A stretch of DNA of 64,000 nucleotides from Pleurocapsa minor GSE-CHR-MK 17-07R (GTDB lineage Bacteria > Chloroflexota > Anaerolineae > Aggregatilineales > Phototrophicaceae). Numbering within the stretch: position 1 is the stretch's first letter; every line of letters begins with the position of its first letter. The notes under the pieces were generated by a model. The model did no database searches, had not been told where the DNA came from, and was given only the letters and a program-made list of their open reading frames with translations. A program made the translations under genes and the position numbers. Positions 19,858 to 64,000 of this stretch are shown here, piece by piece. The stretch is from NCBI GenBank assembly GCA_019359125.1, contig JAHHHY010000009.1, forward strand, positions 124,001 through 188,000, in the 5' to 3' direction.

Positions 19858-21066
19858 TCAGCCGCGCACGGGGCGATATTTCAGGATGGCCTCGCGCAAT
19901 TCCTGCGCGGACTTCTGTGGCTCGACCGTGCTGAACACGATCGGCTTGGCCACATTCAGCGAACCTGTGGCGGGCACCGTGCTTTCATACAGCAGCGGAA
20001 TAATGGGCTTGTTCTGGTTGCGGAAATCGCGGTAGACCGTCTTCAGCACCGGATTAATCATGCTGTGCGGCGAGACCACCAGCACCATGATCGGGCACTC
20101 GCGCTTGGCCTGGTTCATGGCGGCGCGCCAGGCATCGGTGTCGTTGGCCAGATACTGGTCCACCCACACCTTGAAGCCAAAATCGTTCAGCGACATCATC
20201 AGCGGCGCGGCCACTTTTTGCCAGTCATAACGGTCATAGACCAGGAAGATATGGTCACGCAGGATGCCACTTTCCAGGCCGGTGCCCAGGATGCGCGTCA
20301 CGTTGCCCGCCCCGCGAGAGGCGATCAGCGTTTGTTCACGCACGGGGGTCAGCACGACGGGTTTGTGCGCGCCGGTGTCGTCCTCGCCCGGCCCATCGCT
20401 GATTTCCGCGCCCTGGCGAATGTACTGAAGCTGCACCATCGTGCCCAGGCGCAGCGCGTCGTGATGCGCCAGCAGGGTGGGCTGGGTCAGCGGCAGATCG
20501 TTGAGCATGGTGCCGTTGGTGCTGCCCATGTCTTCCACGCTGTAACCGCGTTTTTCGCGGCGCAGGCGCAGATGATAGCGGCTCACTTCGGGGTCGGGCA
20601 GCGAGATATCGCTGGTGGCCTCGCGCCCCACCGTGATGATGATATCGTCCAGCGGGAAAATTTTGCCCAGGCCGGGGCCTTTGGTCACCGTGACGTAATG
20701 GCGCGACGGGGCATCCGCATCCGCTTTGGGCTCGGTGTCGTCTTTGCTTTTCTGCTGCAGGATGGGCAGATTGATGCGCTCGTATTCCAGCGTGATGCTG
20801 TCGCCCAGCTCGATCAGTGCGCCGGGGCGCAGCGGACGGGTGCCGCCTACAGCGCGCTGCCCGTTGACGAACGTACCGTTGCTGGAGCCCAGGTCATGCA
20901 CATCAAAATCATCACCGTTGCGCACCAGGCGGCAGTGCTCGCGGCTGACTTCGTTGTCGCGGATGATAATCGTGTTTTTGCTGCCACGGCCGATGGTAAT
21001 TTCGTCGCGTTCGAGGTCGTAGATGGCTCCCGGTGTGGGGCCGCGGCGCATAATCAGGCGCAGCAT
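19858..21066 (-). CDS. FHA-FHA-TIR domain protein
   Basis: From the ATG at 21066 the product has 402 residues; a GTG at 21105 would add 13. Two FHA phosphothreonine-binding domains open it. The first has GRG (26-28), SREH (41-44) and GSSNGT (60-65); the second has VGRE, SRYH and GSTNGT (about 148-190). After an acidic linker comes a TIR-like domain (about 274-395) starting DHIFLVYDRYDW with the box FKVWVDQYLAND. The usual catalytic Glu after the SP-hydrophobic segment is not evident: the region reads NPVLKTVYRDF. It may therefore be a scaffold rather than an NADase. The FHA domains imply control by a Ser/Thr kinase. Standalone gene. Confidence 0.88.
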   Translation of the reverse strand: MLRLIMRRGPTPGAIYDLERDEITIGRGSKNTIIIRDNEVSREHCRLVRNGDDFDVHDLGSSNGTFVNGQRAVGGTRPLRPGALIELGDSITLEYERINLPILQQKSKDDTEPKADADAPSRHYVTVTKGPGLGKIFPLDDIIITVGREATSDISLPDPEVSRYHLRLRREKRGYSVEDMGSTNGTMLNDLPLTQPTLLAHHDALRLGTMVQLQYIRQGAEISDGPGEDDTGAHKPVVLTPVREQTLIASRGAGNVTRILGTGLESGILRDHIFLVYDRYDWQKVAAPLMMSLNDFGFKVWVDQYLANDTDAWRAAMNQAKRECPIMVLVVSPHSMINPVLKTVYRDFRNQNKPIIPLLYESTVPATGSLNVAKPIVFSTVEPQKSAQELREAILKYRPVRG

Positions 21067-21351
21067 GGCGATAACTACTCGTTTCTTTAGCTTGCGTGCC
21101 GGCACACGGTGCGCTCCGGCGGATAATGTACAGTATAAGACAGGCTTTTGCGCTGAACTGTATGAACTTGTTTACATTATCTTCATAAAGATTTCTGCGA
21201 AAGCAGGTAATGTAATAAAACCAGGCGGTTTAGCACCATCTTATGGCGGTCAACACTAGCGCGCAATCCCTAACGCAGCATGAGAAACAGGACCTTTTTC
21301 CTACTCGCCGCGACGCGCCGGACGCAAATATTTCACCTATATGAAAGTCGG
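21067..21351. promoter_or_regulatory. upstream region of the FHA-TIR gene
   Basis: No gene is supported here. On the minus strand a TATACT box (21132-21137) lies about 65 bp before the FHA-TIR start and is a candidate -10. No matching -35 was found. The rest shows nothing recognisable. Confidence 0.3.
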
Positions 21352-21414: not shown

Positions 21415-22074
21415 CTATTCGCTGGCTTTGGGCGTGGCGGCATTGATCAGCACCTGCTTGTCCGGCAGGGTGGCATCGGGCGGCAGGGCGGGTTTGTCCG
21501 GCGCAGTGGGTGCATCGGCGGGCGGCTCCGGCGTGCTGGCCTTTGGCTGCGGGGAGAGGCTCTTGCTTTTGTCTTTGGCGCGCGCGGACTTCTCGCGGCT
21601 GGAGGCGCCTTCGATGCGCTCCATCAGCGGGGCCGCTGCTGCTGTGACCGGGATGGCTGCCGCCGGATTGGTCTCCGGCGCGACCGGCGCGTAGGCGTGC
21701 TGCGGGCTGGCCTTCACGATGACTTCGTATTTCTGCACCAGCTCCACCAGCTCGGCCACCGGCAGCGGCTTCGACATATAGCCATCGCAACCGGCTGCCA
21801 GGCATTTTTCGCGGTCGCCCACCATCGCATAGGCTGTCACCGCGACGATGGGCGTGCGCACGCCATCGGCGCGCAGCCTGCGCACCACCTCCAGGCCCGT
21901 CATCGCCCCGGCAAGCTGCAGGTCCATCAGGACCAGGTCAGGATTATCCGTCTTGAAATTGGCGAGTGCCTTCTCGCCTTCGGTGTAATTGACGACCTCG
22001 TGTCCCCCCATGCGGGCGACGCGCTGCAGCAAAGAAATGTTGGCTGGATTATCTTCCACATAAAGGATGCGCAT
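21415..22074 (-). CDS. response regulator receiver with long disordered Ala/Pro/Lys tail
   Basis: Residues 1-120 form a DivK-like receiver with E7-D8, phospho-acceptor D51 (LVLMDLQLAG), AVTAYAM and MSKPLP. The remaining 100 residues are low complexity, rich in Ala, Pro, Lys and Ser, with no recognisable output domain. It starts 2 bp after the stop of the histidine kinase, so the two are co-translated partners. An adaptor or phosphorelay role is likely. Confidence 0.92.
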   Translation of the reverse strand: MRILYVEDNPANISLLQRVARMGGHEVVNYTEGEKALANFKTDNPDLVLMDLQLAGAMTGLEVVRRLRADGVRTPIVAVTAYAMVGDREKCLAAGCDGYMSKPLPVAELVELVQKYEVIVKASPQHAYAPVAPETNPAAAIPVTAAAAPLMERIEGASSREKSARAKDKSKSLSPQPKASTPEPPADAPTAPDKPALPPDATLPDKQVLINAATPKASE

Positions 22075-22076
22075 TT

Positions 22077-23567
<1,491 letters not shown>

Positions 23568-23807
23568 AAGTGACTTCGCCTTTACTGCCGTATTGACCAA
23601 GAAAGTCTTTAAACAAAACCCGGATATTCCTAATTTAGGGGTCGAAATACGGATATTACCATTGAGAATTGTCGCTATTTCCATGAAGAATGCCACATTT
23701 TCCATGGATTTTTCACATCTTCGGGCAAAACCGAAACTTTTGGGGCTTTTGCCAGACTGTATGATGATGGATGCAGTGCACAGTGCCGTTTTATGCCAGG
23801 ACACACG
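23568..23807. promoter_or_regulatory. divergent promoter region with a repeated CGGATATT
   Basis: This AT-richer 240 bp lies between the histidine kinase and the divergent ECF sigma gene. CGGATATT occurs twice, at 23621-23628 and 23650-23657, 29 bp apart (about three helical turns), each followed by a short AT-rich stretch. This spacing suits a dimeric or cooperative regulator. No promoter box was pinned down. Confidence 0.35.
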
Positions 23808-24377
23808 ATGATCGTCATCGTTCTGCCCGATATTCCCATCGAGAATGAACTGCTGGATCGCGCACGCCAGGGTGACCAACTGGCCCGTCGCACGATTTAC
23901 GAGCAGTATTTTCCGCCGGTGTACAACTTCATCCGTTTGCGTATCAATGACCGCCAGACCGCCGAGGACATTGCCGCGGACGTATTTCTGGATTTTTTCC
24001 GCGCGCTGGGCGGCAAACGCGCGCCTTCGGGCAGCCTGCGCGGCTGGCTGTTTCGCGTCGCGCGCCATAAAGTCATCGACCAGTATGGGGCCAATCAGCG
24101 CCTGACCACGCCGATCGATGAGTGGCATCCCGATGCGCCGGAAAATATGCCTGATGTCCAGTTTATGCGCGCCAGCCGCACAGAGCGTATCCGCGAGGCG
24201 ATGCGCCTGCTGAAGCCAGAGCAGCAGGAAGTGCTGCTGCTGCGTTTTGCCCAGAACCTGAGCCTGGAGGAGACGGCTGACCTGATGGACCGCAGTGTCA
24301 GCGCGGTCAAATCGCTCCAGTTTCGTGCCGCTGATAACCTGCGTCAATTGCTGAACGACCTTGAGAGAGAGGCGTAG
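23808..24377 (+). CDS. ECF RNA polymerase sigma factor
   Basis: The 189-residue protein has sigma region 2 (IYEQYFPPVYNFIRLRINDRQTAEDIAADVFLDFF, about residues 32-66) and region 4 (LLKPEQQEVLLLRFAQNLSLEETADLMDRSVSAVKSL). The start at 23808 is preferred over the ATG at 23793 because AGGA lies six bases before it. The downstream membrane protein starts 10 bp after its stop and is its likely anti-sigma partner. The N-terminal segment is longer than minimal ECF proteins. Confidence 0.93.
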   Translation: MIVIVLPDIPIENELLDRARQGDQLARRTIYEQYFPPVYNFIRLRINDRQTAEDIAADVFLDFFRALGGKRAPSGSLRGWLFRVARHKVIDQYGANQRLTTPIDEWHPDAPENMPDVQFMRASRTERIREAMRLLKPEQQEVLLLRFAQNLSLEETADLMDRSVSAVKSLQFRAADNLRQLLNDLEREA

Positions 24378-24387
24378 AGGGTGCGCA

Positions 24388-25107
24388 ATGGCTTCCAATG
24401 AACGCCTGACAGACATCTTCAATGACTGCATCAACCGGCTGGCGCAGGGCGAATCGCTGGCGGACTGCCTGCGCGCCTATCCGGAGGAGGCCAGCCTGCT
24501 GCGCCCGATGCTGGAGGCCGGTATGCGCTCGCGCGAGCTGCTGCCCCCGGCGGTGGAAGTGCGCGCCGAAAGCGCGGCCGTGTGGCAGAAAATCACGCAG
24601 ACGATGGATCTGGCCCCTGTGCGCCCGGCCCGCCGCATGCCGGTCAGCCGGATACTGGCGCTGGCGGCGATGCTGGCGCTGGCTGTCGTGACGGCGGCCT
24701 GGTTCCTGCTTGACCGTCAGCAGCAGCAGATGCTGGCCAACATGCAGGCCACGCAGACGGCCGAAATGGCGCTTACGCAGTCGGTGACGGCCACCTTCAC
24801 GCCAACGGCCACCCCCACCGAGACGCCCAGCGCCACGCCTACGCAGACGGTGACGCCCTCAGCGACACCCACACCGACCGTCAGCCCCACGCCGACACTC
24901 TTCCTGGTGCAGCCGCCCACGCGCACGCCCCAGCCCATCAGCGCGCCCACGGCCGACAACAGCGGTTCGGGCAGCAGTAACAGCGGCAGCAGCGGCAACA
25001 GCGGCAGCAGCGGGTCGGGCAGCAGCGGGGATGACAGCCCTGATGACGATAGTCCCGATGATGATTCCGATGATGGCCCGGATGACGATGGGGGTGATGA
25101 TGATTAG
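24388..25107 (+). CDS. membrane-anchored anti-sigma-like protein with acidic C-terminal tail
   Basis: The 239-residue protein has a cytoplasmic N-terminal region (1-80) with a helical motif common beside Chloroflexota ECF genes (CINRLAQGESLADCLRAYPEE). One membrane helix lies near residues 90-110 (ILALAAMLALAVVTAAWFLL). The outside part is a long Thr/Pro linker, a Ser/Gly-rich stretch and a tail made almost only of Asp, Pro, Gly and Ser. There is no ZAS zinc motif. GAGGG just upstream supports the start. Linkage to the sigma gene argues for an anti-sigma or sensor role; the Asp tail might bind cations, which is speculation. Confidence 0.75.
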   Translation: MASNERLTDIFNDCINRLAQGESLADCLRAYPEEASLLRPMLEAGMRSRELLPPAVEVRAESAAVWQKITQTMDLAPVRPARRMPVSRILALAAMLALAVVTAAWFLLDRQQQQMLANMQATQTAEMALTQSVTATFTPTATPTETPSATPTQTVTPSATPTPTVSPTPTLFLVQPPTRTPQPISAPTADNSGSGSSNSGSSGNSGSSGSGSSGDDSPDDDSPDDDSDDGPDDDGGDDD

Positions 25108-28816: not shown

Positions 28817-29683
28817 CTACGGGGTTTCGGTCGCTTCGGGGGTGGCTTCAGCAGTCGCTTCTGCCTCAGCAGTCGCTTCCATTTCGGCGGGCGCGGCTTC
28901 GGTTGCCTCAGGCGTGGCTTCAGCAGTCGCTTCCGGCGTGGACATCAGCGACTCCAGCACGAGCGTCGGCTCTGGTGTGGGGTCAGATGCCAGCGTCGGC
29001 GTCAGCAGCGCCACAAAGCTGTCGACGACAGCGCGCGGCAGCGTGCTGATCGACTGCGTACCCGACAGGGTGACCAGCGGTGCGGCCAGTTCCAGCGTCG
29101 CTTCGGCGGTGGCCTCTGCTTCGGCAGTGGCTTCGGCATCCGGCGTGGACTCGGCATCCGGGGTCGCTTCGGCGGTCGGGACGGGCGGCAGATCGGCCAG
29201 CGTGGCCTCAGCCGTTGTCACATAATAGCGCGCGCTGTTGAAGTTCATGCCGCCGACATGCAGCACATACACCACATCATCAGCCGTCACAAACACGCTG
29301 TAGGCCGGGGTCTCCAGGCCAAACTGCGACGGCGTGTCGCTTTCAAAAGTGTCATTGGCATCCAGGCCGGCAAAGTCTTCGATGCCATCGATGACGGGCT
29401 GCTGGTTCAGGCGGACCGTCGGGTCGCTGGCCAGCTCCCACAGCGCGCTGTCGGCCTTGTCATAGGCGACGGTGGCGCCGGTCACATTGTCGCGCACCTG
29501 GATGCGCTGAATGTCACCCGTGCGGGTTTCGATGGCGGCAAACAGCGGCCCGCCGGTGACGGGCGCGGGGGTCGGGGTGGCTTCACCCGGCGCACTGGCC
29601 TGCTGATTATTGAGCACCAGCGCGCCCAGGATGACCAGCGCCAGCACACCAATCAGGATGAGGGTGTTACGGTTGAGACGCAT
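28817..29683 (-). CDS. DUF4340-like membrane-anchored protein with Ala/Thr/Glu-repeat tail
   Basis: The 288-residue protein starts with one membrane helix (residues 8-26) as an anchor. The folded part (about 45-165) resembles DUF4340 proteins: paired short repeats of a strand, a 'W' position (ALWEL) and a closing FGLETP segment. The rest is a low-complexity tail of ATPEATAEA-type repeats broken by a short helical segment (PRAVVDSFVALL). DUF4340 genes commonly sit beside GldG-like genes in ABC-2 operons, as here. A hairpin separates it from the GldG-like gene. Function within the exporter is not established. Confidence 0.75.
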   Translation of the reverse strand: MRLNRNTLILIGVLALVILGALVLNNQQASAPGEATPTPAPVTGGPLFAAIETRTGDIQRIQVRDNVTGATVAYDKADSALWELASDPTVRLNQQPVIDGIEDFAGLDANDTFESDTPSQFGLETPAYSVFVTADDVVYVLHVGGMNFNSARYYVTTAEATLADLPPVPTAEATPDAESTPDAEATAEAEATAEATLELAAPLVTLSGTQSISTLPRAVVDSFVALLTPTLASDPTPEPTLVLESLMSTPEATAEATPEATEAAPAEMEATAEAEATAEATPEATETP

Positions 29684-29776: not shown

Positions 29777-31483
29777 TCAGTTCTTCAGGCGCTGGCGGCC
29801 ATTCCACCACACCAGCACGCCGATCAGCAGGATGCCGAAGGGCAGCACGATGGTCGTCAGGAAGCTGATATTGCGCAGCGTCTGTTCCTCGGCAAACAGC
29901 GGCACGTCCTGCGGGCGCTGCTGCTGCGGAATGGTGATTTCGCTGACGAAATTGTTGAAGTCGGTCGCCCACACCACGCTGTTGAACGCCACGGTGAAGT
30001 TGTCCACGTTGAGCTGGGCGAATTCGTCCAGGCCAACGGTCGCGCTGCTGATGAGCACCACGCGCGCACCGGTAGTGGTATTTTCGGCCTGCGCCGCCAG
30101 CACGAACGGCCCGGTGGGGTCGGATTCCTGCTGCTGGATGGCCGCGCTCACTTCGTCGGGCGTGCCGCTGAAGAAGCGATTCAGATCATCGATAGTATAG
30201 GCCGATTCGCTGGAGCGGCTGAGCGCGAGCGTCTGCACGCCGGCCGGGGCCGTCTCGGCGATGGTGATCGGGTTCGGCAGCTGGAACAGCAGCAGGCCCT
30301 GGCCGCGCTGGATGTTCGACGTGGTGATATACGCCTGCGTATCCAGGTTATTCGAGATCGGCAGCTCCGGCGACTGGTACGCCTGTACCGGATCGAGCAT
30401 GACAGCGGGCGTGAAGCTGATGCCGAAGTTTTCACTCAGGTAGGCGTTCAGGTTTTCGCTGGTCGCCAGCGACGTGCGTTCTTCGCCGGTCAGGTTGGAG
30501 CCGGCATAGATGATCAGGTCGCCGCCGTTGTCCAGATAGTTGGTCAGGATTTCAAATTCCTGATCGCTCAGCGGGGCAGAGCCGCCCGGAATAATCATGA
30601 CCTCGCCGTCCAGATTCGGGTCGTTGAGCTGGGTTTCGCCGCCGGGGGTGGTCAGCTCGGCCAGCGAGTCCTGCACCACGTTCCAGTCAAAGCGGTCGGC
30701 CAGGCCGGTCTGAAGCAGGGTCATGCTGTCGGCAAAGCCATCGCGCACGTTCAGGAAGTAGGCCGCGAACTGGCCGTTGGCGGCCACGCGCAGCACCGCA
30801 TTGGTCAGGTCTTCCTGAATCGCCGCGCTGACGAGCACGGCATTCTCGACATCAAACGAGCCATCGTCATTCACGCTGACCACGGCGATCTGGCCGGGCG
30901 CATCAATGGCGTAGGTCTGCGCCTGGCTGGGATTGCGGTCGGGGTCGATGAATTCGTAATTGATCTTCTGGCCGGATACCGCACGATAGTCGTCAAACAG
31001 CGCGGTCACTCGGTCGCGCGAGCCGCCCATGTTCTGCGTGTAGAAGGCGAACATCTGCACATTCGGCAGGGTGGGGTCGGCGGCATAGGCACCGATGGCC
31101 TGGCGCGATTCTTCCGTCAGCGAATAGCTGCTGCGCTGGGTCAGGTCAAGGCGGATGCCCTGGTTGCGCACGATGATATACACCACCGAGAGCGCCACGA
31201 TCAGCAGCACGGTCACAATCAGGCTGGTGCCGCCGAAGCGCACGGTGCGGCCGGTGACGATGCTTTTGGCCTGGTCGGGCGCGATCAGCACCCACGCCAG
31301 CAGCGCCAGCACGCCAAAGGCCAGGCCGCCGTAGCCGACGATGCCGAACGTTGGCTGGGTGAAGGCCACAATCAGCGCGACGATGAAGCCCAGCACCGAC
31401 AGGCCGATGAGCACCACAGGGGGAATGAACGGGTCTTGTACGCCTTCGTTTTCGGGCTGCGGCGTATTGTTATACTGAGCCAT
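29777..31483 (-). CDS. GldG-like auxiliary protein of an ABC-2 exporter
   Basis: The 568-residue protein has three N-terminal membrane helices (about residues 22-105), a large extracytoplasmic region and one C-terminal helix (about 540-560, FLTTIVLPFGILLIGVLVWW). The soluble region opens IRLDLTQRSSYSLTEESRQAI, a hallmark of GldG-like proteins. A later segment (GEVMIIPGGSAPLSDQEFEILTNYL then GGDLIIYAG) matches their GATase-like domain. It lies 3 bp downstream of the permease. In Bacteroidota the homologue serves gliding; here only a general envelope export role is likely. Confidence 0.88.
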   Translation of the reverse strand: MAQYNNTPQPENEGVQDPFIPPVVLIGLSVLGFIVALIVAFTQPTFGIVGYGGLAFGVLALLAWVLIAPDQAKSIVTGRTVRFGGTSLIVTVLLIVALSVVYIIVRNQGIRLDLTQRSSYSLTEESRQAIGAYAADPTLPNVQMFAFYTQNMGGSRDRVTALFDDYRAVSGQKINYEFIDPDRNPSQAQTYAIDAPGQIAVVSVNDDGSFDVENAVLVSAAIQEDLTNAVLRVAANGQFAAYFLNVRDGFADSMTLLQTGLADRFDWNVVQDSLAELTTPGGETQLNDPNLDGEVMIIPGGSAPLSDQEFEILTNYLDNGGDLIIYAGSNLTGEERTSLATSENLNAYLSENFGISFTPAVMLDPVQAYQSPELPISNNLDTQAYITTSNIQRGQGLLLFQLPNPITIAETAPAGVQTLALSRSSESAYTIDDLNRFFSGTPDEVSAAIQQQESDPTGPFVLAAQAENTTTGARVVLISSATVGLDEFAQLNVDNFTVAFNSVVWATDFNNFVSEITIPQQQRPQDVPLFAEEQTLRNISFLTTIVLPFGILLIGVLVWWNGRQRLKN

Positions 31484-31486
31484 GAA

Positions 31487-32278
31487 TTACGACCTCCAGC
31501 GGCGAATTTCAACGATACGCGTGGTGATGAACAGCGCCGCGATGATCAGGAAGACGAAATAGAGCACGTCTTCCAGGCGTAGGATGCCCTGCGACATCGT
31601 GGCGTCATAGTGCGCCGACAGGCCCAGCTCGCGGACGATTTCCGCGATGGCGGGGAACTGCGTGCTGATGGCGGACGCGGCGGTGTTGGCCAGATACAGC
31701 ACCAGGATGGTGGCCGAGCCGAGGAAGGCAGACACGATCTGGTCTTCGCTGAGCGCCGAGAAAATCATGGTGATGGCCAGCACCGCGCCGCCGTACAGCC
31801 AGCCGCCGACGTAAGCGCCCACCGCAGCACCCCAGTCTGGCGTGCCCACGGTATTCAGCAGTACGGCAAACACCAGCGAAATCACCAGCAGGATGGTGTA
31901 GTAGGCCCACACCGCCAGAAACTTGCCAATGATGAACTGCGATTCGCTCATCGGCATCGTCATCAGCACTTCCAGCGTGCCTTCGCGGTTTTCCTCAGCG
32001 ATCAGGCGCATGGTCAGCAGCGGCGCGATGAGGAACATCAGGAAGGTGATGATGCTGGGGATGAGCGTGGCGTCGGCCGGAAGCTGGCCATTCACCTGCG
32101 ACAGGTAGCCATTGAAGTAGAAGCCGAGGAAGATGAACAGCGCGAACGCCACACCGTAGGCGATGGGCGAGCGGAAATACTGGCGCAGCTCGCGCTTGAA
32201 AACCGCGAACCACGGGGCCGATGCGCCCAGCTCGACGGCGCGCGGCGCAGATGTCGTCTCGATCGGGGTTGCACTCAT
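31487..32278 (-). CDS. ABC-2 type permease (GldF/NosY-like)
   Basis: The 263-residue protein has six hydrophobic helices. The N-terminal phrase FKRELRQYFRSPIAYGVAFALF and the LIAEENREGTLEVLMTMPMS loop are typical of GldF/NosY-type permeases. Its ATG overlaps the stop of the ATPase gene by four bases, showing translational coupling. It forms the membrane channel of the ABC system with its neighbours. Confidence 0.92.
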   Translation of the reverse strand: MSATPIETTSAPRAVELGASAPWFAVFKRELRQYFRSPIAYGVAFALFIFLGFYFNGYLSQVNGQLPADATLIPSIITFLMFLIAPLLTMRLIAEENREGTLEVLMTMPMSESQFIIGKFLAVWAYYTILLVISLVFAVLLNTVGTPDWGAAVGAYVGGWLYGGAVLAITMIFSALSEDQIVSAFLGSATILVLYLANTAASAISTQFPAIAEIVRELGLSAHYDATMSQGILRLEDVLYFVFLIIAALFITTRIVEIRRWRS

Positions 32279-33240
32279 TCAGTCACCTCTGCGGATTCTT
32301 CATGCGCTGCTTCGGCGGGGGCTACTGCCACGGCCTGCCGCGTCAGTTCGAGGAAGATTTCTTCAAGATTGACGGCCACCGGGCGCAGCTCGGTCAGGCT
32401 GATGCCGGCGCTGACCACGGCCGCGGCAATCGCCGGGCGCGGATCGACCGACAGGCTGGCGGGCGTGGCGATCACGCCGTCCTGCGCGATTTCCACCGCG
32501 CTGACGCCCTCCGCCTGGCGCACAATAGGCAGCAGCGCTTCAACCGGGGCATTGGCGCGCACGAGCACGCGGCCGCCGCGTTCCAGGTCACCGCGCAGCA
32601 CGGTCGGCGCGCCCTGCGCCACGATATTGCCGCCGTTGATGATGACCAGGTTGTCGCACACCTGCTCGGCCTCGCTGAGGATGTGCGTGCTGAACAGCAC
32701 GGTGTGCTTCTGGCCCAGTTCGCGCACCAGGTCGCGCAGCTCGAGCACCTGAATCGGGTCGAGGCCAATCGTGGGCTCGTCCAGAATCAGCACGGCCGGG
32801 TCGTGCACCAGCGTGCTGGCCAGCCCGACGCGCTGCTTCATGCCTTTCGACAGCGTGCGAATCTGGCTGTCGGCGCGCTTCGCCAGGCCGACGCGTTCCA
32901 GCACGTCCATGGCGCGGTCACGGCGATGCTTCACGCCGCGAATCTCGGCGATATACATCAGGTAGCCCAGCGCGGTCATGTCGCGATACAGCGGCACGCT
33001 TTCAGGCAGATAACCGACCTGCTGGCGCACCTTGATGCTCTCGTTGAAGATATCAAAACCGGCCACGCGTGCGGTGCCGCTGGTGGGCGGCAGATAGCCT
33101 GTCAGCATGCGCATAGTGGTGGTCTTGCCGGCGCCGTTCGGCCCCAGAAAGCCTGTCACGCCCCGTGATGCCTGAAAAGAAATACCATTGACTGCGGTAA
33201 ATCCGCCATAGCGTTTCGTTAAGTGCTCAACCTCTATCAT
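32275..33240 (-). CDS. ABC transporter ATP-binding protein (ABC-2/GldA-like)
   Basis: The 321-residue ATPase has Walker A GPNGAGKTT (about residues 34-42), Q loop GYLPES, signature LSKGMKQRV, Walker B VLILDEPTIGLD and the switch His in FSTHIL. The C-terminal 100 residues are an added regulatory domain found in gliding/NosF-type ATPases. It is the first gene of the operon ATPase, permease, GldG-like, DUF4340-like. Confidence 0.95.
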   Translation of the reverse strand: MIEVEHLTKRYGGFTAVNGISFQASRGVTGFLGPNGAGKTTTMRMLTGYLPPTSGTARVAGFDIFNESIKVRQQVGYLPESVPLYRDMTALGYLMYIAEIRGVKHRRDRAMDVLERVGLAKRADSQIRTLSKGMKQRVGLASTLVHDPAVLILDEPTIGLDPIQVLELRDLVRELGQKHTVLFSTHILSEAEQVCDNLVIINGGNIVAQGAPTVLRGDLERGGRVLVRANAPVEALLPIVRQAEGVSAVEIAQDGVIATPASLSVDPRPAIAAAVVSAGISLTELRPVAVNLEEIFLELTRQAVAVAPAEAAHEESAEVTE

Positions 33241-60072: not shown

Positions 60073-63000
60073 ATGCACGCACCGTTGAAGCAACTTCAGG
60101 GCTACGAACTGCGCGAACGGATCGGCACGGGCGGATTTGGTGCGGTTTACAGAGCATACCAGACGACCATCGGGCGTGACGTCGCGATCAAAGTCATCCT
60201 TCCGGATCGCGCTAATCAACCAGATTTCATCCGCCGTTTTGAAAGTGAAGCCCAGTTGATTGCGCGGCTGGAACATCCCCACATCGTGCCGCTGCATGAC
60301 TATTGGCGTGACCCTGAAGGGGCTTACCTGGTGATGCGCTGGTTGCGTGGCGGCAGTCTGCGTGATGCCCTTGAAAAGGGCGCGTTTGAGCCGCGCGCGG
60401 CGGTGCTTCTGCTCGATCAGGTCGCCGAAGCGCTCGCGTTTGCTCATCGCGCGCAGGTGATCCACCGCGACATCAAACCGGGCAACATCCTGCTTGATGA
60501 AGACGGCAACGCTTATCTCAGCGACTTTGGCATTGCCAAAGACCTGAATTTGCCCACCAGTCAGACCGAGTCCAACGTCATTCTCGGCTCAATGGACTAT
60601 ATTTCCCCGGAGCAGGCACGCAGTGAACCCGTTACCGCGCGAACCGACATGTATAGTCTGGGGGTCACCCTTTACGAGATCATCACAGGGCAACACCCGT
60701 TTCCCAATGTCACTTCGATCGAGCGCTTATATAAACACATCAATGACCCACTGCCACAGATTACCACGCTGAATCCCGATATTCAGTCAGCCGTCAATCA
60801 GGTCATCCAGAAAGCGACCGCCAAGAACCCGGATCACCGCTACGCCGACGTGCTGGAATTTGCTGCTGATTTCCGTGAGGCGGTCGGACTCAACCGGTCG
60901 CCGACCTCGCCAGTGGAGGTGCTGACGCTGCGCGAACAGGAAATTCTCGCGTTGATCATCGCCGGACTGGCCAACAAAGAAATCGCGCAGAAGCTCACCC
61001 TGACCGTTGGGACGGTCAAATGGCACGTCAACCAGATTTACAGCAAGCTGGGCGTGCGCAGCCGTGTTCAGGCGATCGTCCGCGCCCGCGAACTCAGCCT
61101 GATCGCCAAACCGGGTGAAGAACAGCCGACGGTCGTCCTGCGCACGGATGAGTTTCACCCCACGAACCCCTATAAAGGACTGCTGCCGTTTCAATCGGCG
61201 GATAATCAGGATTACTTTGGACGCGAAAAACTGACTGCAAAGCTGATCAGGCGTTTGGCCGAAAGCGGAGACTACTCCCGTTTTCTCGCCATTGTCGGTC
61301 CAAGCGGAAGCGGGAAATCCAGCCTGGTGAAGGCAGGGGTGATTCCAGCATTGTGGCGCGGCGAACTGCCCGGATCGGAGCGCTGGTTCGTCGTCGAAAT
61401 GGTGCCGGGGGCGCATCCGCTGGATGAACTGGAAGTGGCGCTCACCCGTGTCGCTGCCAATCAAACGGGCAATCTGAACGAACAGTTAAAGCGTGACTCA
61501 CGCGGGTTGGTGCGGGTAGCAGGCTTAATTCTGCCCAACGATGGCACAGAACTGGTCCTGATGATCGACCAGTTTGAAGAAGCATTTACCCTGGTGAGCG
61601 ATGAAGCAGAGCGCATGCAGTTTCTCGATCTGCTGTATACCGCGGTCACGGAACCCCGCACCCGCGTGCGCGTCATCATCACACTGCGCGCCGATTTCTA
61701 CGACCGACCGCTGCATTACACGCAGTTCGGTGAACTGGTGCGCTCGCGCCTGGAAACGATTATGCCGCTGTCGGCAGAAGAACTCGAACGCGCCATCACA
61801 CAGCCTGCCATGCGCGTGGGGGTCACGTTTGAGCCGGGGTTGGTCTCCACCATCATCGGTGATATCAATTATCAGCCGGGGCCCCTGCCGCTGCTGCAAT
61901 ATGCGCTGACCGAACTGTTTGAAGCGCGAAAGGGACGCACCCTCACACGGGAAGCGTATCAGGGGCTTGGCGGCACCATCGGGGCGCTGACCAAACGTGC
62001 GGAAGCGGTTTATCTGGGTCTCTCTGGCGCCGAACAGGCACTCGCGCGTCAGATTTTTCTGCGTCTCGTCACGCTGGGCGAAGGCACCGAAGATACGCGG
62101 CGGCGCGTCCTGCGCTCTGAATTGAAAGCGCTGACGGACGACAGCGACCAGCTCGATGAAATTCTGGAAACCTTCGCCGCTTATCGCCTGTTCGCGCTGG
62201 ATACTGATGTCGGGACGCGCTCTCCCACCGTAGAGATTGCGCATGAGGCGCTGCTGCGTGAATGGGAACGGCTGCGCAACTGGCTGAATGAAACCCGTGA
62301 CGACATTAAAGTCCAGCGACAGCTTGCGCTGATGACGGACGAATGGCGCAGTGCCAATCAGGATGCCAGTTTCCTCGCCCATGGCGTGCGCCTGGCGCAG
62401 TTCGAAGCCTGGTCAGAAACCAGCCGCCTTGCCCTGAACACGCATGAGCGCGCTTTTCTGTCTGCCAGCCTTGCACATCGAACCCGGGAAGCTGAGCTCG
62501 AAACAGAACGGCAAACGCGCGAACGTCAACTGGAACGCCGGTCGCAGACCTTTCTGCGCGGGTTAGTCGCTGTGCTGGCGCTGGCAGGGATCATCGCCGC
62601 GGTGCTGGCCATCAATGCCAGCAGTAGCGCGGCTGAAGCACAACGCGAACGCGATGCGGCACAGGTGGCTCGCGCGACCAGCGAGGCCAATTTCGCCCGC
62701 GCCGAACAGCAGCGGCTGTACTTAAGCGCAAACGAGGCGATAGATCGCGGAGCAGGCGGAAACATTGGGTTGGCGCTGGCATTGCGCAGCCTGCAATATG
62801 GCTACAGCCCCGGCGCGGAAGCCGCGATTATGCGCGCCAGCCGAGCGGGAACGACTATGCTGGAATTGACGGGCTTTGGTTTCGACATCTATGGCGTGCG
62901 TTATTCGCCTGATGGCTCGATTATCGCTGCGTCCAGTGAAGGAGGCACCCGCATCTATGACGCGGAAAGCGGCACGGAATTACAGTTTTTGCCTGAAGAT

Positions 63001-64000
63001 ACTGCGATCGTGTGGACAATTGACTTTGCACCTGACGGCGGGACCCTGGTGACCCTCGCCAATTCGGGGACTGCACGCGTCTACGACACCGCGACATGGC
63101 AGGAAACCCATGCTTTCGAGATTGAACTGAATGTCTGGTTCGCCGATTTCTCGTATGATGGCACGCGGCTGGTGATCGGCGGCGACAGCTTTATTGACGT
63201 GAGGGACACGGCGACATGGGAACGCGTAGCACAATATGAGCGGCCGATAGACGAGGATACCCGCCTTCTCAGTGTGCTGTTTGGCGCGACAAATGTCGAA
63301 CGCTTCATCATGCGCCAGAATAACCGTATTGTGATTCGAGATGCATCGAACGGTGACCTGCTGTGCACTCCGCTTGATGCTGATGTACCAGACGATACCT
63401 ATACCTGGTGGTCTGAACGTGATCCGGTGTTCATGGTCGCCCCGGCGGACCCGATTGACGGCGCGTACCGCGGATACATTTATAACTACGAGACGTGTTC
63501 CCTGCTCACAACAGTCAGTGAACCTGATTACCGCATCTGGTACGGTGAATACGATCCCGTCAATGATCGTATGGTGACGATCAACTCCAACAGGGAGGTG
63601 GCGCAGTGGCAGATGTCCACCGGATATGAACTGGCGCGTTTCAGCGTACCCACCAACAGTTATGATCTCGATCTCTCACCTGATGGCACGCGCCTTGCCC
63701 TTGCCGATATTCCAGTTGCGCGCGTGATCAATCTGACATTTCCGGCGCAGCCTGAGTTCATCACGACCGAGCTGGCCAATACACATTTTCCGCGGTTTGC
63801 GCCCGATGGTGAAAGCATCTACATCGGCGCGTTTGGCGACGCCGGGCGTTATACGCTGGAGCCGGGCGCCCCCGCCATTCAACTGTATGAGCAGGCCATT
63901 CGCGCCTTTTCGGTCTCCACAGATGGGCGCTATCTTGGGGCAGCGCTTGAACTAACGAACACCGATGAGCATCCGCTGTTGTGGATCGACGCCAGCACAG
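60073..64000 (+). CDS. Ser/Thr kinase - LuxR HTH - STAND NTPase - WD40-like fusion, C-terminus beyond the window
   Basis: At least 1309 residues are visible. Residues 11-270 are an intact Hanks-type kinase: GTGGFG loop, K40 (VAIK), E59, HRDIKPGN with D133 and N138, and DFG at 151-153. A LuxR/GerE HTH follows directly (about 283-343, LTLREQEILALIIAGLANKEIA and TVKWHVNQIYSKLGV). A STAND-type NTPase comes next: it opens NPYKGLLPFQSADNQDYFGRE, has Walker A GPSGSGKSS (409-417) and Walker B LVLMIDQFEEA, as in nSTAND1-like ATPases. A coiled region and one membrane helix (about 828-848) lead to propeller-like repeats (YSPDGSIIAASSEGGTRIYD, LSPDGTRLALAD). GGGGGG five bases upstream supports the start. 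A DNA-binding domain in a membrane protein is unusual. Confidence 0.93.
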   Translation, partial: MHAPLKQLQGYELRERIGTGGFGAVYRAYQTTIGRDVAIKVILPDRANQPDFIRRFESEAQLIARLEHPHIVPLHDYWRDPEGAYLVMRWLRGGSLRDALEKGAFEPRAAVLLLDQVAEALAFAHRAQVIHRDIKPGNILLDEDGNAYLSDFGIAKDLNLPTSQTESNVILGSMDYISPEQARSEPVTARTDMYSLGVTLYEIITGQHPFPNVTSIERLYKHINDPLPQITTLNPDIQSAVNQVIQKATAKNPDHRYADVLEFAADFREAVGLNRSPTSPVEVLTLREQEILALIIAGLANKEIAQKLTLTVGTVKWHVNQIYSKLGVRSRVQAIVRARELSLIAKPGEEQPTVVLRTDEFHPTNPYKGLLPFQSADNQDYFGREKLTAKLIRRLAESGDYSRFLAIVGPSGSGKSSLVKAGVIPALWRGELPGSERWFVVEMVPGAHPLDELEVALTRVAANQTGNLNEQLKRDSRGLVRVAGLILPNDGTELVLMIDQFEEAFTLVSDEAERMQFLDLLYTAVTEPRTRVRVIITLRADFYDRPLHYTQFGELVRSRLETIMPLSAEELERAITQPAMRVGVTFEPGLVSTIIGDINYQPGPLPLLQYALTELFEARKGRTLTREAYQGLGGTIGALTKRAEAVYLGLSGAEQALARQIFLRLVTLGEGTEDTRRRVLRSELKALTDDSDQLDEILETFAAYRLFALDTDVGTRSPTVEIAHEALLREWERLRNWLNETRDDIKVQRQLALMTDEWRSANQDASFLAHGVRLAQFEAWSETSRLALNTHERAFLSASLAHRTREAELETERQTRERQLERRSQTFLRGLVAVLALAGIIAAVLAINASSSAAEAQRERDAAQVARATSEANFARAEQQRLYLSANEAIDRGAGGNIGLALALRSLQYGYSPGAEAAIMRASRAGTTMLELTGFGFDIYGVRYSPDGSIIAASSEGGTRIYDAESGTELQFLPEDTAIVWTIDFAPDGGTLVTLANSGTARVYDTATWQETHAFEIELNVWFADFSYDGTRLVIGGDSFIDVRDTATWERVAQYERPIDEDTRLLSVLFGATNVERFIMRQNNRIVIRDASNGDLLCTPLDADVPDDTYTWWSERDPVFMVAPADPIDGAYRGYIYNYETCSLLTTVSEPDYRIWYGEYDPVNDRMVTINSNREVAQWQMSTGYELARFSVPTNSYDLDLSPDGTRLALADIPVARVINLTFPAQPEFITTELANTHFPRFAPDGESIYIGAFGDAGRYTLEPGAPAIQLYEQAIRAFSVSTDGRYLGAALELTNTDEHPLLWIDAST

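Follow-up and report, generated by a model that had tools for sequence, protein, structure and literature searches.

Bacterial TIR domains have mostly been studied as NAD+-cleaving immune effectors, and most of the studied ones act in defence. A different kind of signalling module, the GarA/OdhI switch, consists of an FHA domain with a phosphothreonine in an adjacent flexible segment. Published work reports that the AbTir mutants E208A and S140A have inhibited (lost or reduced) NADase activity (PMC11374754), that the scaffold TIR domains of MyD88 and MAL signal via assembly and not via NAD+ cleavage (PMC8635717), and that Rv1747 is an ABC transporter with two FHA domains (PMC5549992). The available text of two eLife papers lists FHA and TIR among the effector domains of conflict systems and describes no FHA-TIR fusion within that text. 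We found no FHA-TIR fusion protein in the literature searched, most subscription journals lying outside that search.

Here we compare these systems with a protein encoded in the window, by which we mean the whole stretch of 64,000 nucleotides that was analysed. The protein has the TIR fold in common with the TIR NADases (AbTir, SPARTA TIR-APAZ and, as a fold relative, the SARM1 TIR), but the orthologs in its family are nearly all without the catalytic Glu and the strand-A Ser, and FHA domains are attached. As in GarA and OdhI, its FHA domains adjoin a flexible linker with a possible phosphothreonine, which would make a putative cis switch; unlike GarA and OdhI, it has two FHA domains plus a TIR. 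In contrast to MyD88 and MAL, the protein is bacterial and FHA-coupled, and its assembly is predicted. The FHA and ABC parts that Rv1747 combines are here separate genes that are only neighbours, and the ABC type is GldAFG-like. The neighbouring operon resembles the gliding-associated GldA/GldF/GldG genes, with all three products scoring below the NCBIfam equivalog cut-offs (GldA 280 bits against 402.6, GldF 115.3 against 288.5, GldG 29.9 against 389.85). Our preferred reading, which we hold with moderate confidence, is that the protein is a conserved, vertically inherited, phosphothreonine-gated intracellular adaptor with a non-enzymatic TIR.

Architecture and fold of the FHA-FHA-TIR protein

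The gene and its parts were placed as follows.

19858..21066, minus strand: FHA-FHA-TIR gene, 402 aa counted from the ATG, in a frame that reaches a GTG at 21105
20803..21000, minus strand: FHA domain 1, residues 36-101, with phosphothreonine-site residues R40, S54, H57 and N76 (Pfam PF00498 and conservation)
20434..20688, minus strand: FHA domain 2, residues 140-224, with R161, S175, H178 and N197 (Pfam)
20254..20415, minus strand: variable linker, residues 231-284, in which a Thr (T259) recurs
19930..20250, minus strand: TIR_2 domain, residues 286-392 (Pfam and fold match)
20239..20241, minus strand: codon of Val289, at the position of AbTir Ser140 (profile alignment)
20035..20037, minus strand: codon of Val357, at the position of the catalytic Glu, AbTir E208 (profile alignment to 7uwg, 8g83 and 7uxr)

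As listed with its GTG start, the open reading frame spans 19858-21105 on the minus strand (415 aa), and the ATG at 21066 is codon 14 of that frame. Because homolog matches in an order-wide protein search begin mostly at residues 5 to 17, often at 13-14, the ATG is likely the start codon of the gene.

The initial annotation had described two complete FHA domains fused to a TIR-like domain, and this architecture proved to be real. Pfam gave the domain order FHA, FHA, linker, TIR, matching FHA in two stretches (1.6e-38) and TIR_2 above its curated cut-off (3.5e-11, 44.1 bits against 28), and GR, SRxH and GS[ST]NGT are present in each FHA domain. The arrangement is common to 54 orthologs and is thus not due to chance. 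With NCBIfam, the OdhI model matched the FHA part at 111.1, below its cut-off of 200. The FhaB/FipA model (NF049868, 158 positions) reached a whole-protein score of 136.4 bits against a cut-off of 125, to which two stretches of the double-FHA sequence contribute; these stretches lie in the FHA part and not in the TIR, and probably represent one match per FHA domain.

The TIR-like character of the C-terminal domain was borne out both by profile and by predicted fold. When a profile of the 54 family TIR domains was compared with the PDB, TIR proteins were matched, with AbTir first at an E-value of 1e-5 and MyD88 chains also among the matches. A TIR-only AlphaFold2 model built from two sequences had a mean pLDDT of 75.3 and aligned with TIR structures at Z values as high as 14.9. 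In the full-length two-sequence model the FHA part was poor (mean pLDDT 42.4) and the TIR part matched TIR structures at Z up to 14.7; the alignments to TIR structures cover about 120-130 residues. The 50 entries listed for each comparison (full-length and TIR-only models) are TIR-domain proteins by title, some being entries that we take to be such. A SEFIR domain had been considered in place of a TIR, and with Pfam TIR_2 was above its cut-off and no SEFIR model was matched at E up to 1. Five TIR columns, Y290, W295, W314, Q317 and W326, are invariant in the 54 orthologs.

Catalytic positions of the TIR domain

From the sequence it had been proposed that the usual TIR Glu is absent and that Lys or Thr takes its place. 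The first proposal agrees with our alignments and the second does not: in profile alignments to 7uwg, 8g83 (AbTir) and 7uxr, by which, and not by superposition, the position was placed, the WxxxE Glu falls on the column of Val357, with Lys355 and Thr356 as its neighbours. The strand-A Ser of AbTir (S140) aligns with Val289, and so the window protein has Val at both of the tested TIR NADase positions.

The same two positions are degenerate across the 54 orthologs, an alignment in which contig starts cut L106 and L107 short and the very divergent L094 has a gap adjoining position 357. The Glu column holds Ala in 26, Ser in 7, Gln in 4, Glu in 4, Asn in 3, with the last 10 orthologs divided among seven further residues; the Ser column holds Ala in 29, Thr in 11, Val in 8, Leu in 3, Ser in 2 and Ile in 1. 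Glu is therefore found in 4/54 orthologs, the Ser of AbTir-S140 in 2/54, and both together in none, all four Glu-bearing orthologs having Ala at the Ser position. These few Glu-keeping proteins could be active. By conservation, the Glu column comes 90th among the 116 TIR columns, and on the full-length tree position 357 changed at least 4 times between Glu and not-Glu and at least 22 times among all states. Judged by profile, the protein belongs to the TIR fold and the FHA family and not to the TIR NADases, because both residues that define the latter were tested and neither is present.

TIR domains retrieved for comparison differ from the orthologs at these positions. All nine of the relatives fetched (response regulator-GAF-TIR, response regulator-TIR, TIR-WD40, phage-sheath-TIR and others) carry both Ser and Glu, and the motif around the Glu is otherwise nearly intact, reading RYVRLEYRYF in the nearest relatives versus RYVRLAYRYF in orthologs. 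On a TIR-domain tree a single branch separated the orthologs from the other TIRs tested (SH-aLRT 96), and seven Glu-bearing relatives made up the nearest group (SH-aLRT 88; root uncertain). L173, L174, L175, L178 and L179 are the closest TIR relatives; all have Ser and Glu, and they are of the response regulator-GAF-TIR, response regulator-TIR and TIR-WD40 types (by Pfam for all but L174).

In two relatives of one genus, L176:1553-3403 and L177:1559-3382, a Phage tail sheath domain (PF04984) is joined to a C-terminal TIR in which Ser and Glu are intact; we found no such fusion in the literature searched.

The window's own genome holds 11 other TIR_2 matches, of which four, all with Glu, were taken into the TIR-domain tree and the residue count of relatives. 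Glu is present in nine of the 11 and both residues in seven; L135 and L137 lack both, and two more lack the Ser. Because L135 and L137 have neither residue, degenerate TIRs are not unique to the FHA-FHA-TIR ortholog family. L135 lies with L131 in a 567-aa frame with two TIR domains (G000:C12:12802-14322), one with Ser and Glu and the other with neither.

We asked whether the TIR might still be an enzyme, either through another residue or by contributing one half of a composite site shared with a TIR partner that is active. Glu336, present in 52/54 orthologs and in 2/7 of the nearest group, would be a replacement residue, and the nine Glu-keeping TIR domains of the same genome would be potential partners. 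However, E336 would lie where helix B ends and strand C follows, at the far pole of the fold from the usual active site, and on this position we disfavour it as a relocated catalytic Glu. The many state changes at position 357 likewise hardly suggest that a catalytic role was retained, and we regard an enzymatic TIR as quite unlikely.

A second alternative is that the TIR is a ligand sensor whose pocket still binds NAD+ or a derivative of ADP-ribose but does not cleave it, with the FHA pair relaying the signal. Consistent with this, D316, at the position of AbTir D167, is Asp in 47 and Glu in 6 of 54 orthologs, position 364, aligned with AbTir R215, is Arg in 41/54, and Y290, W314, Q317 and W326 do not vary. 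However, the Glu-bearing nearest group also conserves D316 and these four residues, which may be structural. Arg364 occurs in 0/9 relatives, and the window protein has Gln there, so that the equivalence of Arg364 to AbTir R215 is doubtful. We consider a ligand sensor unlikely, with slightly more in its favour than an enzyme.

The reading of the protein as a scaffold and not an NADase, raised in the initial annotation, is strengthened by the sequence evidence, since both NADase residues have degenerated in nearly all orthologs while the TIR is under purifying selection (see below); the scaffold role is a predicted one.

Descent, selection and predicted phosphothreonine reading

Among the matches listed from 154 genomes of the order, those spanning FHA, FHA and TIR occur only in the window's own family, which belongs to the Chloroflexota, and those from the order's other families cover FHA1 alone. 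We extracted 55 open reading frames from 55 genomes and dropped L096 (G090), which has FHA only, leaving 54 orthologs with a TIR in 54/98 family genomes and 21/24 genera; left out of the count were an incomplete match in G062, lying at the edge of a contig, and L124 (G149), a stand-alone TIR of another family that keeps Ser and Glu by eye. The gene was not found in 44/98 genomes of the family, and in genus g22 it was present in 1/34. No genome had a second full-length copy among the matches listed in the order search (154 genomes). At the G090 locus (L096:4218-6112), two adjacent double-FHA genes are found, neither with a TIR.

Outside the family, the TIR profile matched best at 6e-22 in a class sample (396 genomes), where the family orthologs listed scored 1e-37 or better, and at 3.7e-24 in a phylum sample (400 genomes). 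Five such TIR proteins that come from outside the order all have Ser and Glu by eye.

On the gene tree, genus labels required 20 changes, the minimum possible for 21 genera, and all seven genera with two or more members each formed one side of a branch. Because the labels need the fewest changes and the multi-member genera stay together, we infer that the tree is consistent with vertical descent and fits it better than a mobile defence gene.

Pairwise dN/dS of the TIR (NG86) was 0.01-0.33 in 13/13 close pairs, which were hand-picked as close; some dS values among them are high (up to 2.3) and hence imprecise. The highest value came from the window protein and L070, which are 67% identical. These figures bear on the idea of a decaying fusion whose TIR part has no present function, for which one could cite the loss of the catalytic residues and the double-FHA proteins without a TIR at the G090 locus. 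However, with dN/dS low and TIR columns invariant family-wide, we disfavour decay and assign it almost no weight. Judged by the five invariant columns and the low dN/dS, the TIR is under purifying selection and is not decaying.

The phosphothreonine sites of the FHA domains are conserved to different degrees. In FHA2, R161, S175, H178 and N197 are each invariant (54/54 orthologs). In FHA1, R40 is found in 37/54 (2 gaps) and N76 in 34/54 (1 gap), and in one clade (16 rows, of which 15 have letters at these columns) the FHA1 Arg and Asn were lost together. The site residues are intact in both FHA domains of the window protein. In genus g3 (e.g. L073-L076, L079 and L080), R40 of FHA1 is replaced by Ser or Gly and N76 by Arg, with FHA2 intact.

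Many orthologs have a motif like [KR]xT[ST]xxLGTGL in the linker. We compared linker motifs with shuffles that preserve composition but not relatedness. [DE]T occurred in 42/54 linkers (shuffle mean 30.8, maximum 40), [KR].?T[ST] in 36/54 (mean 13.2, maximum 23) and LGTG in 29/54 (mean 0.2), whereas [KR].T, in 41/54 (mean 30.3, maximum 41), was not above chance. The best Thr column has Thr in 43 or 46 of 54 orthologs, depending on the alignment, which is uncertain in the linker. The linker Thr residues are candidate phosphosites, a lead to which these counts lend weak support.

A kinase fusion near 60 kb had been suggested as a source of the phosphorylation. This frame, at 60073-64000 and running off the window's end, encodes a Pkinase-LuxR-nSTAND1-WD40 protein. 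As a specific partner it is not supported, and we rejected it as unspecific, it being one of 26 Pkinase matches in the genome. A cluster of kinase-like neighbours (by eye) appeared in 5/55 loci at scattered positions and strands, which we estimate to be about what chance would give for 26 kinases in 4.85 Mb.

Gene neighbourhood and proposed function

In many relatives a same-strand operon lies upstream, encoding an ABC ATPase, an ABC-2 permease, a GldG-like protein and a DUF4340 protein, with domains checked on the window copies. The relevant genes in the window are these.

28817..29683, minus strand: DUF4340 protein, 7.6 kb upstream of the FHA-FHA-TIR gene
29777..31483, minus strand: GldG-like ABC_transp_aux protein
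31487..32278, minus strand: ABC-2 permease, GldF-like
32275..33240, minus strand: ABC ATPase, GldA-like
21415..22074, minus strand: response regulator, immediately upstream in the window; local, not recurrent
22077..24434, minus strand: histidine kinase frame, true start probably internal

DUF4340 lay within 700 bases upstream in 18/43 loci (those with at least 1.5 kb upstream), GldG within 3.5 kb upstream in 14/36 (at least 4.5 kb), and a GAF-(PAS)-HisKA-HATPase kinase within 3 kb downstream in 26/46 (at least 2.5 kb), counts that are not independent of the neighbour profiles, which were built from the same loci, and whose denominators exclude L096 (44, 37 and 47 with it). The GAF kinase stood at position +1 or +2 in 29/55 loci. 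Conversely, 25/43 loci were without an adjacent DUF4340 and 20/46 without a nearby GAF kinase.

In L070, DUF4340 is 267 bases from the FHA-FHA-TIR gene. The window's genome has one DUF4340 above cut-off, the copy listed above, and its best match to the recurrent GAF kinase (G000:C16:110572-111282, 321 bits) sits outside the window, 33 kb from the gene on the same contig. The histidine kinase and response regulator in the window were rejected as the recurrent partner, the kinase (C16:146158-146880) scoring 131 bits against 321. With DUF4340 7.6 kb off and the best GAF kinase 33 kb off, the window is a loosened version of the recurrent neighbourhood.

We also considered that the protein is an anti-phage or abortive-infection TIR effector, degenerate by happenstance. 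A DNA-methyltransferase-like gene (by eye) lies directly downstream in 6/55 loci (L071, L082, L092, L102, L120 and L123), followed by the GAF kinase in five of those six, and such a gene would suit a defence role. However, the commonest neighbours are the transporter operon and the histidine kinase, the gene tree is consistent with vertical descent across 21 genera, and the best PADLOC match of the window protein, among seven window proteins scanned, was partial (68 residues, E 0.007). We consider a defence effector very unlikely.

Returning to the phosphothreonine-gated adaptor, we propose the following mechanism. FHA2, and in most lineages also FHA1, would read phosphothreonine from a Ser/Thr kinase. 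The TIR keeps its fold and probably a homotypic assembly surface, and would have ceased to hydrolyse NAD+. Its assembly would be governed by phosphothreonine binding, whether to a partner in trans or to the Thr-bearing linker in cis. Kinase signals would in this way be passed to the Gld-like ABC transporter with DUF4340 and to the GAF histidine kinase. A more specific version, in which the protein is a housekeeping bacterial MyD88-type TIR, an FHA-gated assembly module controlling the Gld-like ABC transporter with the GAF histidine kinase within one Chloroflexota family, is one that we put forward tentatively and consider possible rather than probable.

The four Glu-keeping orthologs and the Glu-bearing relatives in the window's bacterial family are ready-made controls. 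If our reading of the adaptor is true, scaffold-type TIR signalling would also have arisen in bacteria outside defence, and it would there be tied to Ser/Thr phosphorylation.
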